In this document: positions 55,970-61,492 of the stretch, one piece after another
Numbering within the stretch: position 1 is the stretch's first letter
Layout: the number at the start of each line of letters is the position of its first letter
NCBI GenBank assembly: GCA_947176535.1
Contig: CAMWQU010000003.1
Location: forward strand, 1-64,000
Reading direction: 5' to 3'
Source of the DNA: an uncultured Prevotellaceae bacterium
GTDB lineage: Bacteria > Bacteroidota > Bacteroidia > Bacteroidales > Bacteroidaceae
DNA length: 64,000 nt
The notes under the pieces: model-generated
What the model saw: the letters and a program-made list of their open reading frames with translations, nothing else
What the model was told of the DNA's origin: nothing
Databases searched by the model: none
Made by a program: the position numbers and the translations under genes

Positions 55970-56371
55970 ATTATTTTACGTTTTAGGTTATACAATTCTT
56001 TTCATTTACTTTAGGATAGCCGGGAGCCTTCTCCCGGACTCAGTGCCAACATGTCAAAGAACACCAAAGCGCAGCGGCAGCAGCAACGGGATGACGTGTG
56101 AGGACACACTCCCGGCTGTCGGGCGTCTGCGACGGATGAAAAGAATGTTAGCGAAAGGCTATGCTCACTACATCCTCATACCGCCCGGAGGGGCCGCAAC
56201 ACCGAAACAGATTTCAGTCAGATGTAGATGCTTCATAGCTTAAAAATGAAAAGGTATTAAACCGTAAAATATGAGCCGCACCACACAGCGGTGCATACTA
56301 TGTACGCCACAAAGGTAATGAAAAAAACATACCGGCAAAAATTTTCTGCCCTTTTTCTTTCGTATTTCTCT
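55970..56371 (-). other. Long structured leader of the AAA+ ATPase gene
   Basis: Between a promoter box (56310-56317) and the ATPase start lie about 335 nt with hairpins CCGGGAG-CCTT-CTCCCGG (56020-56037), GTGTG...CACAC near 56100 and GCACC...GGTGC near 56280-56300, and a 22-codon open frame on the minus strand (56236 to 56168) encoding MKHLHLTEICFGVAAPPGG plus three residues. It matches no riboswitch I know. It may be a regulatory leader or an independent small RNA. Confidence 0.4.
56310..56317 (-). promoter_or_regulatory. -7 element ahead of the ATPase leader
   Basis: TACCTTTG on the minus strand, exact consensus, about 340 bp before the ATPase start codon and close to the end of the tat operon. 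Confidence 0.5.
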
Positions 56372-56415
56372 ATACGTTGCATCCACTGTAGCGTTCAACA
56401 GCGGATGCAACGTAT
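56372..56415 (-). terminator. Hairpin at the end of the RiPP-tat operon
   Basis: ATACGTTGCATCC (56372-56384) and GGATGCAACGTAT (56403-56415) are perfect complements, and ACTGT/ACAG inside lengthens the stem. It starts 6 bp after the tatC stop. No T-run, but the position marks the operon end. Confidence 0.7.
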
Positions 56416-56420
56416 TGTAT

Positions 56421-57305
56421 TTACAGGCTTTCGTCCTTGGGCTCTGTCCATTTTACAACTCTTATACTTACCTCATAAAGCAAGTAAAGAGGTATTGCAA
56501 CCAATATTAGCGTCATGATATCCGGCGGAGTAATGATGGCAGCCACCAGCATAATGCCAATGAAGGAATGCCTGCGATAGTTGGCAAGCAGTGATGACGT
56601 GACAATCCCCATCTTTCCGAGGAAAAAGGCAATTACGGGCAACTGGAATACCACACCCATAATCAAGGTTAGTGAAATGAAAGTCGAGATATAAGAGTCG
56701 AGCGTGATGTTACTTACCACCCTTTCCGACACACTATAAGTACCGAGAAAACGGAATGAGATCGGGAACAATACAAAGTAACTCATCAGCACACCGAGAA
56801 TAAACAGCGCATAAATGATACCCGCCACTTGCACCGAATATCTCCGTTCGTTTTCATACAGAGCAGGCGATATGAAACGAAATAACTCGTACAGGATGTA
56901 AGGCGATGCTCCCAACAGCCCCAAATAAACCGCAGTACTGATGTGCATCATAAACTGGCTCGACAAGTCCGTGGCAATCATATCCACATGGAACGCCTCA
57001 AAATGAAAATCTATGCCGACCGACCGTATGGCCTGTTCCAACCAACGATAGGTGCAGAAATCCCATTCACTCGGTGCCAGCAGCAACTGCCACGTGATGT
57101 CTTTGAAGCAGAAAACTACCCCTGCAATCAGAGCCACTACACCGAGAATGCGAAAAAGCATTTGGCGGAACACCTCCAAGTGCCCGCCAAAAGTTAGAAG
57201 ATTGCCATCATCGGCTACTTCGCTTTCCTGCGTTTGCGGTTTACTCTGCTCCAGTTTCTGCTGACTTCTTTTGTTCAGCGTCTTCTGTTTCTTCCTGACC
57301 ACCAT
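56421..57305 (-). CDS. tatC: Twin-arginine translocase subunit TatC
   Basis: A 294-residue inner-membrane protein with six predicted helices. The N-terminal motif [18 protein letters not shown] (about 40-57) holds the conserved Glu that reads the twin-arginine signal; [14 protein letters not shown] and the late helices [17 protein letters not shown] and [20 protein letters not shown] follow the family. The start at 57305 overlaps tatA by 65 bp; no later ATG would keep the first helix, so coupled translation is likely. It is the last gene of the RiPP operon and would export its Tat-signalled precursor. The first 35 residues are polar and not conserved. Confidence 0.93.
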
Positions 57306-57471
57306 CTTTTTGCTTCTCTTCTGCCAGTGGCTCGTTCATACCTTTCTTGAAACTCTGCACTCCTTGCCCCAGGCCTTTCATCATTTCAGGCAGTTTCTTT
57401 CCGCCGAACAGCAGCAAAGCAATGCCACCTATCAGCACCAGTTCCGTCGTCCCTATAAATAATGGTATCAT
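57241..57471 (-). CDS. tatA: Twin-arginine translocase subunit TatA
   Basis: A 76-residue protein: one N-terminal helix [20 protein letters not shown] followed by the amphipathic helix [19 protein letters not shown] and an acidic tail, the standard TatA/E layout. It forms the pore with TatC encoded next. Its start overlaps the stop of the small modification gene by 4 bp. No TatB was found; two-component TatAC systems are common outside Proteobacteria. Confidence 0.93.
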
Positions 57472-57746
57472 ACTGTCACAAGATATATTTCACACGTTGC
57501 AAAGTCTATCTCCCAATTTCCGTTTTCGGAAGATTCCCACTGATACTTCTCTGCCATCCTATCCCACCAGCCTTGGAACTTCGCTCCTGTCTCGCCCAAG
57601 TCCTTCACCAGTCTTTCATACAATTCGGCATTGTCTGCTGTGAGAATCTTTGCCAACTCATTCAGTCCGTTGCGACGTTCGAAGAGCGTCTGAATCTCGT
57701 TCTTCTCTTCGGGTGTCACTTGCCCCACAAGTTTTTTTACTGCCAT
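57468..57746 (-). CDS. Small CXXX-repeat peptide modification system protein
   Basis: A 92-residue cytoplasmic protein, mainly helical, with [20 protein letters not shown] at the start and [14 protein letters not shown] near the end. I recognise it as the small protein that accompanies CXXX-repeat RiPP operons in Bacteroidetes; its job may be leader recognition or enzyme scaffolding, but this is inference. It overlaps the upstream maturase gene by 10 bp and tatA by 4 bp, so all are coupled. Confidence 0.72.
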
Positions 57747-58663
57747 GTCTCTCTTTTGTCAAAGGGGTCTAAATAATCTATTTCTTTTATATCTTCCTTT
57801 TCAGGCAGGAATGTGCCGTGCTTGCGAATGTTCCGCAACAATTCTTTAGAAGCGTTGCGCTCCAGATGGGCCACAACACACTGTTCATGCGAGGGAGTGT
57901 TTACTTCTAATGTTGTTTTACGGTTCAACCACACACAACGTTTACACTGGTAAGCATCGCAGTGGCGACAGATAGGCGCATACTCCAATTTATACAACTG
58001 CTTGTTCCTGATGTCAAGCCCATGTTCCAAGTCGCCAATGCTATCCTCTTCATTTTCATAATAGAACGCAGGACACACATAGAACTTTCCGTTTGGTGCA
58101 AGAGTGACGGACATATCTCCTGCCCCGCAGTTGTTCATGGCAGACAACATCATCCTATCTGTCAATAAATTGATTTGAGGCGATTTTCCATCTACGTACA
58201 TTCGCTCTACCTCTGCAGCGACCCTCTCCAACAGCGATTTATACCGGGTGAAATCATTCTCCGTAAATGTTTCCACATCCGTAAGCACGATGTTCAATCG
58301 TGGCACACTTTTCAGCATTTCCACAACCTCATTCTCTTTCTCGAACAACACCTCTTTGCTCACACGCAACACCACAGGCACATTGCCATCCACTTTTGCA
58401 GGCTCATCCGCCACCCACACATCAGCCTCATCGGCAATCGGCTTTATCTTTGAGTGGTCAATCGTTTCCACTTCATCCTTATACTCCTGTGGCAAATCAT
58501 ACTTCGGGAATACAAACTGAATCATCAGATTCTCCATCATTCCGTACCGAATGCCTTTTTTCAAGACATCAAGAGGTATCAGATTTCTCTCTTTCCTTGT
58601 ATTCTCATAGTGACAGAACGATGTGCTTGTCTCGTCAAGCAATATAATTAAATATTGTAACAT
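57737..58663 (-). CDS. CXXX-repeat peptide maturase with SPASM-like domain
   Basis: A 308-residue protein whose C-terminal half resembles a SPASM domain: NNCGAGDMSVTLAPNGKFYV, CPAFYYENEED, then ICRHCDAYQCKRCVWLN and EQCVVAHL, cysteines able to hold auxiliary Fe-S clusters. The N-terminal half looks like a degenerate half-barrel but has no CxxxCxxC, so it should not perform radical SAM chemistry by itself. It probably pairs with the radical-SAM enzyme encoded 5 bp upstream to modify the CXXX repeats. Found in this operon type in other Bacteroidetes. Confidence 0.78.
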   Translation of the reverse strand: MLQYLIILLDETSTSFCHYENTRKERNLIPLDVLKKGIRYGMMENLMIQFVFPKYDLPQEYKDEVETIDHSKIKPIADEADVWVADEPAKVDGNVPVVLRVSKEVLFEKENEVVEMLKSVPRLNIVLTDVETFTENDFTRYKSLLERVAAEVERMYVDGKSPQINLLTDRMMLSAMNNCGAGDMSVTLAPNGKFYVCPAFYYENEEDSIGDLEHGLDIRNKQLYKLEYAPICRHCDAYQCKRCVWLNRKTTLEVNTPSHEQCVVAHLERNASKELLRNIRKHGTFLPEKEDIKEIDYLDPFDKRETWQ

Positions 58664-58668
58664 ACTCG

Positions 58669-59850
58669 TCAGCAGATTAAATCGTTTGACTTCGGTTTGC
58701 TCTTCTCGAACTCCTCGCGCATATCCTCCAGCTCCAGTTTCCTATAGAGCTTGTTCCAATAGTAGTTGTTGGCACGTACACGGGCCTTGTGCATCTTGCA
58801 AATGGCGGTTGCCCTTTGGTAAATAGTGGCAGTATCAGCCGCATCATAGTTCTCACCCTGACACCAAGCACAACCGCTGGCCACCTCACAATCAATACAC
58901 TCCTGCCGCGACTGTGTAGTTCGGTCAAGTGTCAGGAAAGGACGCAACTTATTTTTGTCAATGCCATCATGCACATTACCAATAATAATGGGCTTTTTTG
59001 AACGAAGCGAATAAGCAGCGAAACGAGTACAAGGATAGAAGTTGCCTGCTGCATCAACCGACAGCATCATACCTGCTCCACACCAATTCTGGTTGTATAG
59101 AACCCTATCAAGTGGTTTTCCTATGTTTTCTGAGAAGAACGAACAAGAATAGTCGTTATAGTACCCACCGTCTATTATTTCATCAGCTAATTGTATCAGT
59201 TGGTCTCCAAACAACTTATCATCGTCTTCTTTCCATACATTCTCAAACACAACATTGATGTGCACTTCACGTATGCCAAGAGAAAAAAGGTGCAACACAC
59301 TTTCCTTGATATATGGTATATCTGCGCTGCTGATTGTTACTTTTGTCCCACCGTGAGGAAACTGTTTCAGCCACAAAGGAATGTTTCGCACCACATCATC
59401 GTATGATCCCCGCTCTGCTCCTCCTTTATAAATCCTATTCAAATCGTGCTTACGTTTTGTTCCATCAATCGTAATACCAATACTTAAATGCTCATGGTTT
59501 TTCGTTATAAATTCCTGAACTTTAGGACTATCATAGTTTATCCCATTTGTAGAGAAACTAAATCTATAGGAATTAAACCAATGATGATTCCTGCGAAACA
59601 TCTCGGTTTTGAGATAGTCACAAATCTTGTCTATGAGTTCTATTTCTAAAAATGGTTCCCCACCAATAAAATCCCACACGACGGATTCCTCACGAAAATC
59701 TTCCTCATGGCCGAGGATATAATCAATAGCTTGTTTAGCTACCTCCCAAGGCATTCGCTCTTTCGAGTTCTTCCCTACGAGGTAGCAGTATTTGCAGGCA
59801 AGTTGGCAATCTTTTGTGACAATAAAAGTTATATTTTTGATACTATTCAT
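58669..59850 (-). CDS. Radical SAM/SPASM peptide maturase for a CXXX-repeat peptide
   Basis: A 393-residue radical-SAM enzyme. The cluster motif is CQLACKYCY (Cys14, Cys18, Cys21 approximately) in ITFIVTKDCQLACKYCYLVG; WDFIGGEPFLEIELIDKIC holds the GGE SAM contact. The SPASM region starts at NWCGAGMMLSVDAAGNFYPC and continues ECIDCEVASGCAWCQGENYD and ICKMH. Enzymes of this subfamily make sulfur-to-carbon links in cysteine-rich peptides; here the substrate is almost surely the precursor encoded 24 bp upstream. Cytoplasmic; acts before Tat export. Low GC like the whole operon. Confidence 0.9.
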   Translation of the reverse strand: MNSIKNITFIVTKDCQLACKYCYLVGKNSKERMPWEVAKQAIDYILGHEEDFREESVVWDFIGGEPFLEIELIDKICDYLKTEMFRRNHHWFNSYRFSFSTNGINYDSPKVQEFITKNHEHLSIGITIDGTKRKHDLNRIYKGGAERGSYDDVVRNIPLWLKQFPHGGTKVTISSADIPYIKESVLHLFSLGIREVHINVVFENVWKEDDDKLFGDQLIQLADEIIDGGYYNDYSCSFFSENIGKPLDRVLYNQNWCGAGMMLSVDAAGNFYPCTRFAAYSLRSKKPIIIGNVHDGIDKNKLRPFLTLDRTTQSRQECIDCEVASGCAWCQGENYDAADTATIYQRATAICKMHKARVRANNYYWNKLYRKLELEDMREEFEKSKPKSNDLIC

Positions 59851-59874
59851 TGCAAGTGTTTACTTAACTTACAT

Positions 59875-60174
59875 TCAATACTTACCCGCCCGTTTACAAA
59901 GACCCTTACAAGTTGTTGAACATCCAGATTTACATGCTCCACTACATCCTGTACTACATCCACTTTTACATGTTCCACTGCATCCACTTTTACAACCATC
60001 TTTACAGCTATCAGCACAATCTGAGCATCCAATTACATCCTCTAATTCATCACATGATGTGAGAACTGTTGGCCCAAGAATCGTTAATCCAAGAATCGGT
60101 AGAACGCCTTTAGCAGCAGCCTTGAAAAATTCTCTCCTTGATTTCAGTTCTTCTTTTTGTTTCGTTGTTTTCAT
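59875..60174 (-). CDS. CXXX-repeat RiPP precursor with twin-arginine lipoprotein leader
   Basis: A 99-residue peptide from the ATG at 60174 (a TTG five codons earlier is less likely). The leader has SRREFFK (Arg13, Arg14), a hydrophobic stretch GVLPILGLTILGPTVL and the lipobox LTSC (Cys41): a Tat lipoprotein signal. The core has Cys at 53, 57, 61, 65, 69, 73, 77, 81, 85, 89 and 93, eleven in strict four-residue register, plus Cys50; fillers are KSG, SGT, STG, KDG and similar. The DNA also repeats in ~12-nt units. Expected fate: cross-linked by the radical-SAM pair, folded, exported by the adjacent TatAC, lipidated and displayed on the outer membrane. Confidence 0.92.
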   Translation of the reverse strand: MKTTKQKEELKSRREFFKAAAKGVLPILGLTILGPTVLTSCDELEDVIGCSDCADSCKDGCKSGCSGTCKSGCSTGCSGACKSGCSTTCKGLCKRAGKY

Positions 60175-60251: not shown

Positions 60252-60983
60252 TTAATCTTCACTCTTACCTAAGGATATGAACTTCCACACACCGCCTCTC
60301 TTTTCAAACATACCATTCACCTTCAATTCTATTGTTCCTATTTTACTAACCGTAGGAACAATGAAGACTCCACCGATGACATTTCCTTTAGGCTGCGTTG
60401 GTAAGTCATAGATAAAAGTATTGTCTTTGGTTGTTATGTTAAACAAAGCATATTCAAGACTCAGTCCTGTTGGAGCATGTTTCATATCAAAACTATTATT
60501 GCATTTTAACCATACAGAATAACCTTTTTTCTTACCTGCTTCTTCATCTATCCCGAAGCCTTCAATCTCCGAAGCCTCTATTTTGTAAAGATGATTGGAA
60601 ACTTCCTCAGATGCGTCCTCTACATCGCAATCAAATTGTTCAAAATCAATCGTACTTTGTGTTAAGAATCCACTATAAGATACCTGAGGGCGGCGTTTGT
60701 CGCTTTTTGCAATAGATTCATTACTCCATGGTGTAACAAAATCTTTTGTTACAAGAAACTGGTTTTCACCAATTCTAACTCCACAAGTATAAGTCCTTCC
60801 ATAACAATTCATTCCTGACTTGTTTTCAATAGGTTCATCATCTTCGTTGAGTATCTGGTAGTCCTGTCTTAAAACAACAATACCTTTTTTAATAGCACGC
60901 TCTATCAAATCGTTTGCCATGCTTTGTGCCATTACGCATAAGGAGGATGAGCCCAAAAGCATTGTAATAAGGAGTTTTTTCAT
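60252..60983 (-). CDS. Hypothetical exported protein upstream of the RiPP precursor
   Basis: A 243-residue protein with a Sec signal peptide (MKKLLITMLLGSSSLCVMAQ). I do not recognise a family. The mature part is mixed alpha/beta with few cysteines (CYGRTYTCGVRIG near residue 60-72) and ends in GMFEKRGGVWKFISLG. It overlaps the upstream gene by 4 bp and lies 77 bp before the precursor gene on the same strand, so it may belong to the operon and assist the exported peptide, but a separate role is equally possible. Confidence 0.75.
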   Translation of the reverse strand: MKKLLITMLLGSSSLCVMAQSMANDLIERAIKKGIVVLRQDYQILNEDDEPIENKSGMNCYGRTYTCGVRIGENQFLVTKDFVTPWSNESIAKSDKRRPQVSYSGFLTQSTIDFEQFDCDVEDASEEVSNHLYKIEASEIEGFGIDEEAGKKKGYSVWLKCNNSFDMKHAPTGLSLEYALFNITTKDNTFIYDLPTQPKGNVIGGVFIVPTVSKIGTIELKVNGMFEKRGGVWKFISLGKSED

Positions 60984-61492
60984 TTGTCTAATTCTATTAT
61001 GTTTATTATGTCATTGATTGTCTTACTTTCTTTCTTCCATTTATTCTGATAAAAAGAAAAACGCAAGTGGTTATTAAATTCTATGACATAAGGTGTCATA
61101 CAACCATATAAATCTTTCCATTCAGACCATTTGATATAAAACCGTAGTCTATTGACATAGTATGATTTATAAGGTTCGCAATATATCAATTCCGTTTTTA
61201 CTTTGATTATCTTCGAGCCACTTTTGACATACACAGAGTCCAACTTCTCTACGACAGGAGTAACCACAGTTGTTGTGAACGACACAGAGTCTGTGTCTCC
61301 AGAAAGATAGGTAATATCAAATGTCATGCCATATCTTGTCTGATTCTCACTGCATTTAGGCATGTGCATTGGTCTAATAAAATACAACATTCCGCTCTCT
61401 GTCAAAAATGTCGTATATCTTTTTGACACAGAACTGGCAAGAACCTGCATACAGCACATGTATGCAAGAAATAGGAATAGGGGTCTTTTCAT
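60980..61492 (-). CDS. Hypothetical exported protein
   Basis: A 170-residue protein with signal peptide MKRPLFLFLAYMCCMQVLAS. No family recognised. The mature part is predicted mostly beta (TFDITYLSGDTDSVSFTTTV, GSKIIKVKTELIYCEP, LRFSFYQNKW). Its stop overlaps the next start by 4 bp. Just upstream is the 12-mer ACTTTCTGTAAA (minus strand), which is also present in front of the RiPP precursor gene. Confidence 0.72.
   Translation of the reverse strand: MKRPLFLFLAYMCCMQVLASSVSKRYTTFLTESGMLYFIRPMHMPKCSENQTRYGMTFDITYLSGDTDSVSFTTTVVTPVVEKLDSVYVKSGSKIIKVKTELIYCEPYKSYYVNRLRFYIKWSEWKDLYGCMTPYVIEFNNHLRFSFYQNKWKKESKTINDIINIIELDK

Follow-up and report, generated by a model that had tools for sequence, protein, structure and literature searches.

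Does a ribosomally synthesized and post-translationally modified peptide (RiPP) leave the cell through a twin-arginine translocation (Tat) pore that is encoded beside its own maturation enzymes? This question is raised by an operon located on the minus strand, at positions 56421–60174, of a 64,000 nucleotide stretch of DNA from an uncultured Prevotellaceae bacterium (contig CAMWQU010000003.1, assembly GCA_947176535.1), which is referred to here in its entirety as the window. The operon consists of six genes, which encode a CXXX-repeat precursor peptide, a radical SAM/SPASM enzyme, a partner of this enzyme, a protein of 92 amino acids (aa), TatA, and TatC. To our knowledge, RiPPs leave through ATP-binding cassette (ABC) transporters or Sec-like routes. 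Taken as a whole, we regard the reading of this locus as a RiPP-type maturation and export operon as probable, and the evidence bearing on it is discussed below.

An earlier note on this DNA, made from the sequence alone, had read the locus as a CXXX-repeat maturation operon that also encodes a TatAC pore. NCBIfam model searches and the gene anatomy bear this out, and the operon is confirmed as a CXXX-repeat peptide maturation gene set with co-encoded TatAC. The six open reading frames (ORFs) lie on one strand at exactly the positions given in that note, and the gaps of 24 and 5 bp and the overlaps of 10, 4, and 65 bp were reproduced. The precursor gene (59875–60174) is followed by those for the maturase (58669–59850; TIGR04115, 631.2 bits, cut-off 350), the partner (57737–58663; TIGR04119, 255.5 bits, cut-off 150), the 92 aa CXXX modification system protein (57468–57746; TIGR04116, 105.2 bits, cut-off 50), TatA (57241–57471; TIGR01411, 60.1 bits, cut-off 53.9, and PF02416), and TatC (56421–57305; TIGR00945, 160.6 bits, cut-off 132.7, and PF00902). 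Of the hairpin that was said to close the operon, a good inverted repeat of 10 + 4 pairs is present directly after tatC (56375–56412), but no T-run stands behind it; the nearest terminator-like sites by the rule of the tool are located at 56277–56295 and 56334–56350, and none is called at the inverted repeat itself.

The 99 aa precursor contains, from its N- to its C-terminus, the motif SRREFFK (residues 12–18; 60121–60141), in agreement with the twin-arginine signal ascribed to it earlier, an LPILG element (residues 25–29; 60088–60102) whose Pro is at +14 from the Ser of SRR, a lipobox-like LTSC ending in C41 (residues 38–41; 60052–60063), and a repeat core of eleven Cys, C53 to C93 (59896–60018), which are spaced exactly 4 residues apart and form part of a total of 13 in the peptide. 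The precursor scores below the cut-offs of both TIGR04117 (47.1 vs. 50 bits) and TIGR04114 (15.7 vs. 20 bits), and the repeat is plain in the sequence: ten CxxxC motifs are present, and just two stop-to-stop frames of at least 40 aa in the window have at least four of them. In its genome, which is 85% complete, this precursor is the sole match to TIGR04117 at E ≤ 1.

The conservation of the tat linkage, which the earlier note had put forward among the matters to be checked, was found across Bacteroidales in two samples. A scan of species genomes identified 335 relatives of the maturase, and the loci of the best 80 of these 335, 77 of which stem from records bearing the label Bacteroidales, were kept; having been picked by similarity to the window maturase, they include near-duplicates (L062 and L063, and L091 and L092, are near-copies). 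The common gene order in these loci is precursor(s), maturase, partner, TIGR04116, tatA, tatC, with the maturase present in 80, the partner in 79, a precursor found by homology in 76, and TIGR04116 in 76. A TatC-like ORF within the locus, which defines linkage in this set, is present in 60 loci and missing from 14 that extend at least 2 kb beyond TIGR04116, while 6 are cut by contig ends, so that 60 of the 74 decidable loci are linked. A second sample, anchored on TIGR04116 within the window's own family to offset this selection by likeness to the window, was drawn from 301 genomes, 34 of which are over the TIGR04116 cut-off. The 30 loci taken from these 34 genomes, the window included, comprise 25 in which the strand of TIGR04116 also carries a TatA- and/or TatC-like ORF, four in which it does not, and one that is cut, so that linkage is seen in 25 of 29 decidable cases; for one of the four without it, just 1.0 kb of downstream sequence is available. 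The system is patchy in its distribution, since only 6 of 395 genomes from an even sampling of the whole phylum, the window genome included, are over the TIGR04115 cut-off, and TIGR04119 is over its cut-off in 3 of 98 and 4 of 245 genomes of two other classes. Three of the loci (L052, L069, and L108) belong to records whose titles name Clostridium, a Clostridia bacterium, and Ruminococcus flavefaciens, respectively; the rpoB of L052 and L108, being 87 and 67% identical to that of the window genome, is Bacteroidota-like, and all three assemblies look mislabelled.

At 13 of the 14 loci without a linked TatC, all 16 of the homology-found precursors still carry the twin arginines (RR), and the host genomes of thirteen tat-less loci with such precursors have one unlinked TatC. 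Since the tat-less loci retain RR precursors, predicted Tat targeting is the rule in this system and the linked TatAC pore is a frequent addition to it.

The twin arginines themselves, in the form RRx[FVLIM], are found in 140 of the 141 homology-found precursors of the relatives, a set that was picked by likeness to the window precursor and thus favors similar leaders; the exception, L061, was excluded from the position counts (hence n = 140). No homology-found precursor is present at L049, L059, L083, and L093, where the enzyme gene begins about 600 bases or less from the locus end. When frames were found by the repeat alone (at least six CxxxC, plus strand), 142 of 148 carry RR, one of the 142 being a spurious Arg-rich frame; 8 of the 148 lie outside the homology set. 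The six frames lacking RR comprise two that are cut at a contig start, L061, and those of L050, L055, and L056, which may be true exceptions or broken frames. These last three CXXX-rich frames (L050 9503–9886, L055 1050–1415, and L056 6301–6474) stand beside ordinary operons. At L050 (8703–9425) and L054 (8669–9919) there are also precursors in which the CXXX repeats are accompanied by a long extra domain-like stretch.

In the 140 precursors, Phe occupies +4 in 135 and +5 in 131, and +6 is Lys or Arg in 134. Pro is found at exactly +14 in 126 and within +12 to +16 in 138, as compared to 0 of 21 selected other Tat signals and 3 of 35 before selection. The 35 controls were automatic picks around TIGR01409 matches, many of them wrong-frame ORFs, from which the 20 with RRx[FI][LI][KR] in a frame of at least 240 aa were kept and 15 dropped, and the signal of an aldo/keto reductase of the window genome was added; this filter sets +5 to Leu or Ile, so that +5 supports no claim. 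Fisher values for such comparisons take no account of relatedness, and no conclusion is based on them here. A helix breaker 12–17 residues after the twin arginines is a known Tat feature according to an excerpt of PMC7317946. The LPILG element is accordingly best described as a candidate for a maturase recognition element, a Tat hinge, or both. The precursor had also been described as a Tat lipoprotein; in the window a predicted lipobox does follow the Tat signal at C41, but this form is in the minority among relatives (24 of 140), where about 100 signals end in an AxA-like site and 16 in neither (loose patterns, with some visible misassignments). The precursors of the relatives contain 8–74 Cys each, with spacers rich in Gly, Ser, Thr, and Asn, and Asp accounts for about 4% of the X positions.

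The notion that the Tat of the operon might be the only one in its genome has to be abandoned, as a second tatA–tatC pair of the housekeeping type was found on another contig, adjoining the gene of an aldo/keto reductase that itself bears a Tat signal, NRREFLK. Because of this second locus, the operon Tat is dedicated at best. Other Tat signals are few in the window genome: two are over the TIGR01409 cut-off, both at the second tat locus. This locus (L195 2604–5503, contig C9) is preceded by a 496 aa frame, which resembles a 4Fe-4S membrane protein and has an internal match to the Tat model, and by the aldo/keto reductase, whose signal is of a Tat lipoprotein-like kind.

Our TatC census took in 49 of the best-80 loci, and the search for Tat signals took in 40 of those 49 genomes. 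Both linked and unlinked TatC are present in 26 genomes, unlinked TatC only in 14, and linked TatC only in 9. Absence of any TIGR01409 Tat signal at E ≤ 0.05 was seen in 5 of 7 linked-only genomes vs. 0 of 33 others, in a search whose matches were unfiltered for CXXX precursors (one is a 105 aa frame on an operon contig). This suggests that, drafts allowing, Tat may be kept for one peptide family in the linked-only genomes that have no other Tat signal. The 14 unlinked-only genomes host 13 of the 14 TatC-less loci and also L058, which is cut by the end of its contig 1 kb beyond TIGR04116; RR is present in 17 of 17 of their homology-found precursors, to which the repeat-only criterion adds L104 with RR and a 57 aa frame at L056 without it. 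One genome carries two whole operons (L047 and L051), both of them linked to a tatAC of their own; the searches of this genome found neither an unlinked TatC nor any further Tat signal. The window TatC falls into the operon-linked group in a tree of 58 linked and 41 unlinked rows, on which the linked/unlinked label needs 2 changes as against a mean of 31.7 when shuffled. A tree in which all linked rows are placed together has a higher likelihood and one clade is not rejected (approximately unbiased test, p-AU 0.70), so that the operon-linked TatC sequences are compatible with a single clade.

The maturase has the Cys motifs of radical SAM/SPASM enzymes: CxxxCxxC is kept by 79 of 80 relatives, and all 80 show a Cys pattern of the SPASM type. 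The solved sequence nearest to it is 5wgg, which we take to be CteB, and its best secondary models, all under their cut-offs, are those of the PapB, CcpM, Nif11-like, and SCIFF maturases. The earlier description of the TIGR04119 partner as a SPASM-like maturase holds for its radical SAM/SPASM fold but not for its catalytic motif, as none of 78 relatives has a CxxxCxxC within its first 150 residues. The SPASM-type Cys pattern is present in all 78 of these, and its seven Cys are invariant in 86 of 86 aligned rows, seven distant rows included. An AlphaFold model of the partner (predicted local distance difference test score, pLDDT, 91) has its best solved match in 5why/5wgg, entries concerned with thioether bond formation, at a template modeling (TM) score of 0.65–0.69. 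Because CxxxCxxC is absent, the SPASM-type Cys are kept, and the model matches 5why/5wgg, TIGR04119 looks like a radical SAM/SPASM fold that has lost its SAM cluster and kept its auxiliary-cluster ligands, viz. a pseudo-enzyme partner. The TIGR04116 protein, considered as a possible carrier of a RiPP recognition element, is modeled (pLDDT 91.5) as strand-helix-helix-strand-strand, and no fold match stands out. In L035 (12688–13945) and L323, TIGR04116 and tatA are each present in two copies, separated by an incomplete second partner gene, which looks like the outcome of a tandem duplication in the operon.

More distant forms of the system are also informative. In two genomes of one other genus, the partner and TIGR04116 form one 510 aa protein (L230 6436–7968 and L231 5726–7258) and tat is unlinked; the precursor there has a Tat signal and a lipobox-like site, and rpoB is 55% identical to that of the window genome (one genome measured). 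A further genus has one locus with an RR precursor, maturase, partner, and TIGR04116 with no tat behind, and a second locus that is cut after the partner, no TIGR04116 being found elsewhere in that genome. Yet another genus is represented by three genomes (rpoB 53% identical to that of the window genome, one of three measured), in which the same two enzymes are followed by an ABC transporter of the permease-ATPase type. All three precursors of this genus lack RR, keep KTLPGLAF or KTLPGFGF, and have a CX3 repeat core; no TIGR04116 was found anywhere in the three genomes at E ≤ 1, and the locus stretch contains no tat gene, a single TatC being located on another contig. This pattern, drawn from one lineage, suggests that RR, TIGR04116, and Tat form a set and that it is the maturase that recognizes LP. 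Because the leader of the ABC type keeps the LP common to most precursors of the Tat type, the Tat signal may double as the maturase leader.

On the basis of these observations, the following course of events can be proposed. The radical SAM/SPASM enzyme, paired with the pseudo-enzyme, would recognize the precursor by its leader, probably via the LP element, and would modify the CXXX repeats within the cytoplasm. Thioether links, which the maturase's nearest named relatives form, are the most likely outcome; this chemistry we infer from the under-cut-off matches to the PapB, CcpM, Nif11-like, and SCIFF models and from 5wgg. The TIGR04116 protein would act with the pseudo-enzyme, a cooperation supported by the fusion of both in two genomes, and perhaps serves as an adaptor or shields the Tat signal up to the completion of modification. 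The modified, stiffened peptide would then exit via Tat, mostly through the TatAC pair that travels with the operon, a step for which there is strong genomic support, and Tat would be used owing to the stiffening of the peptide in the cytoplasm. To judge by the type of signal, signal peptidase I would release the peptide, and in a minority that includes this locus signal peptidase II and lipid anchoring would tether it. A bolder version, in which all parts hold jointly, is tentative and in our estimation rather doubtful: the Tat signal would be the RiPP leader, with the maturase pair reading LP in its hydrophobic region and TIGR04116 covering the twin arginines; the dedicated TatAC would pass only cross-linked peptide, the folded-cargo check of Tat serving as natural-product quality control; and the exporter module would be exchangeable (Tat with RR and TIGR04116, ABC without) around one fixed modification core.

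Other explanations of the operon have to be weighed against this proposal. The maturase pair might load or protect metal or Fe-S clusters on the Cys repeats without making cross-links, with Tat exporting a folded metallo-peptide. Proteins that bind cofactors in the cytoplasm are the main cargo of Tat (PMC7317946, in the part excerpted), the regular CXXX spacing, the polar and Gly-rich spacers, and the large numbers of Cys would suit metal binding, and all seven SPASM-type Cys are kept in the pseudo-enzyme; we nevertheless consider this explanation unlikely, as CxxxCxxC persists in nearly all relatives of the maturase, for which the closest solved sequence and the top secondary models belong to peptide maturases, several being of the thioether type. 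A chance placement of housekeeping tat genes downstream, with no functional tie, is very improbable. The 14 loci with maturation genes and no tat would fit such an accident, as would the 9 of 49 genomes whose linked TatC must serve any other Tat substrate, but the order is conserved in 60 and 25 loci, the genes overlap in the window, the linked TatC sequences group together, the window genome has a separate housekeeping-type tat locus, and RR is present on nearly every precursor. Export of the precursor by Sec, with incidental twin arginines, is scarcely credible: hydrophobic regions with Leu and Ile could, as is generally known, engage Sec, but the near-constancy of RR (140 of 141), of Phe at +4, and of Lys or Arg at +6, and the TatAC pair beside most precursors, argue for Tat. 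That the LP element is a Tat hinge alone, with the recognition part of the leader located elsewhere, is conceivable, though we think it on balance not the case; helix-breaking residues at this distance are a general Tat feature (PMC7317946, as excerpted), and on the other side stand the frequency of Pro at +12 to +16 here as compared to the other Tat signals, selected or unselected, and the retention of K-T-L-P-G in three precursors that have no RR.

Several points also weigh directly against the reading of the locus as a maturation and export operon for a modified, Tat-exported peptide. The best-80 loci are biased toward window-like ones and contain near-duplicates, 14 of them have no linked TatC, and up to four of the RR-less frames may be broken or may encode repeat proteins that have no Tat signal. 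The genomes are mostly drafts, that of the window being 85% complete, so that an absence of other Tat genes or signals may reflect gaps, and the contrast with the ABC type comes from three genomes of one genus, one of which is 77% complete. The free quick TatC tree groups two linked rows (L098 and L111) with unlinked ones. The control signals were found with TIGR01409, a Tat model that may itself disfavor Pro, and Pro alone could be an ordinary Tat hinge (PMC7317946, excerpt). PapB joins Cys to Asp in CX3D according to an excerpt of PMC9413430, whereas the +4 residue here is Cys and Asp occupies few of the X positions. Lastly, both covalent modification and Tat export are deduced here from sequence only.

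Upstream of the operon on the same strand (60252–61492), the window contains two genes for proteins of 243 and 170 aa with secretion-like N-termini and no Pfam match.

Among known systems, the CXXX-repeat radical SAM target system of NCBI (TIGR04114–TIGR04119) matches the operon in its maturase, partner, and small protein and in a precursor that bears repeats; the present analysis adds the Tat coupling, the degenerate state of TIGR04119, and the ABC variant. In the ranthipeptide systems PapA/PapB (freyrasin) and CteA/CteB, a radical SAM/SPASM enzyme likewise acts on Cys-containing peptides, in the case of PapB on CX3-type motifs. The window system differs from these in that its maturase is below the family cut-offs (202.9 vs. 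340 bits for NF047865, the PapB type, and 114.8 vs. 425 bits for TIGR03974, the SCIFF/CteB type), its repeat is CX3C and not CX3D or CX3E, its partner is a putative pseudo-enzyme, and a Tat signal would serve as leader. TatAdCd of Bacillus subtilis is a substrate-linked minimal TatAC pair that serves PhoD; the operon resembles it in having a minimal TatAC for a particular substrate, which in this case is a short, probably modified Cys-repeat peptide, with a linkage spread over an order. Halocins, archaeal antimicrobial peptides one of which is Cys-rich, are said to use Tat and resemble the window system in the Tat export of peptides; the window system differs in its radical SAM maturase and co-encoded Tat, neither of which we know of in halocins. 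Among the matches listed in a partial coverage of the literature, we found no publication on TIGR04114–TIGR04119 or the CXXX repeat, or on a Tat-linked radical SAM peptide, and in the main text of a survey of Bacteroidales RiPPs (PMC10352776) the terms "CXXX," "TatC," and "translocase" are absent. The families are thus known by their NCBI names, and Tat coupling of a modified peptide was not found in print.

The family to which this operon belongs is widespread, with 6,846 protein clusters (at 90% identity) matching the window TIGR04116 protein, and gut and rumen Bacteroidales carry the compact gene set. If these peptides do use their own Tat pore, Tat would be an export route for modified peptides, and the peptides would provide small natural cargoes for mechanistic work on this translocase.

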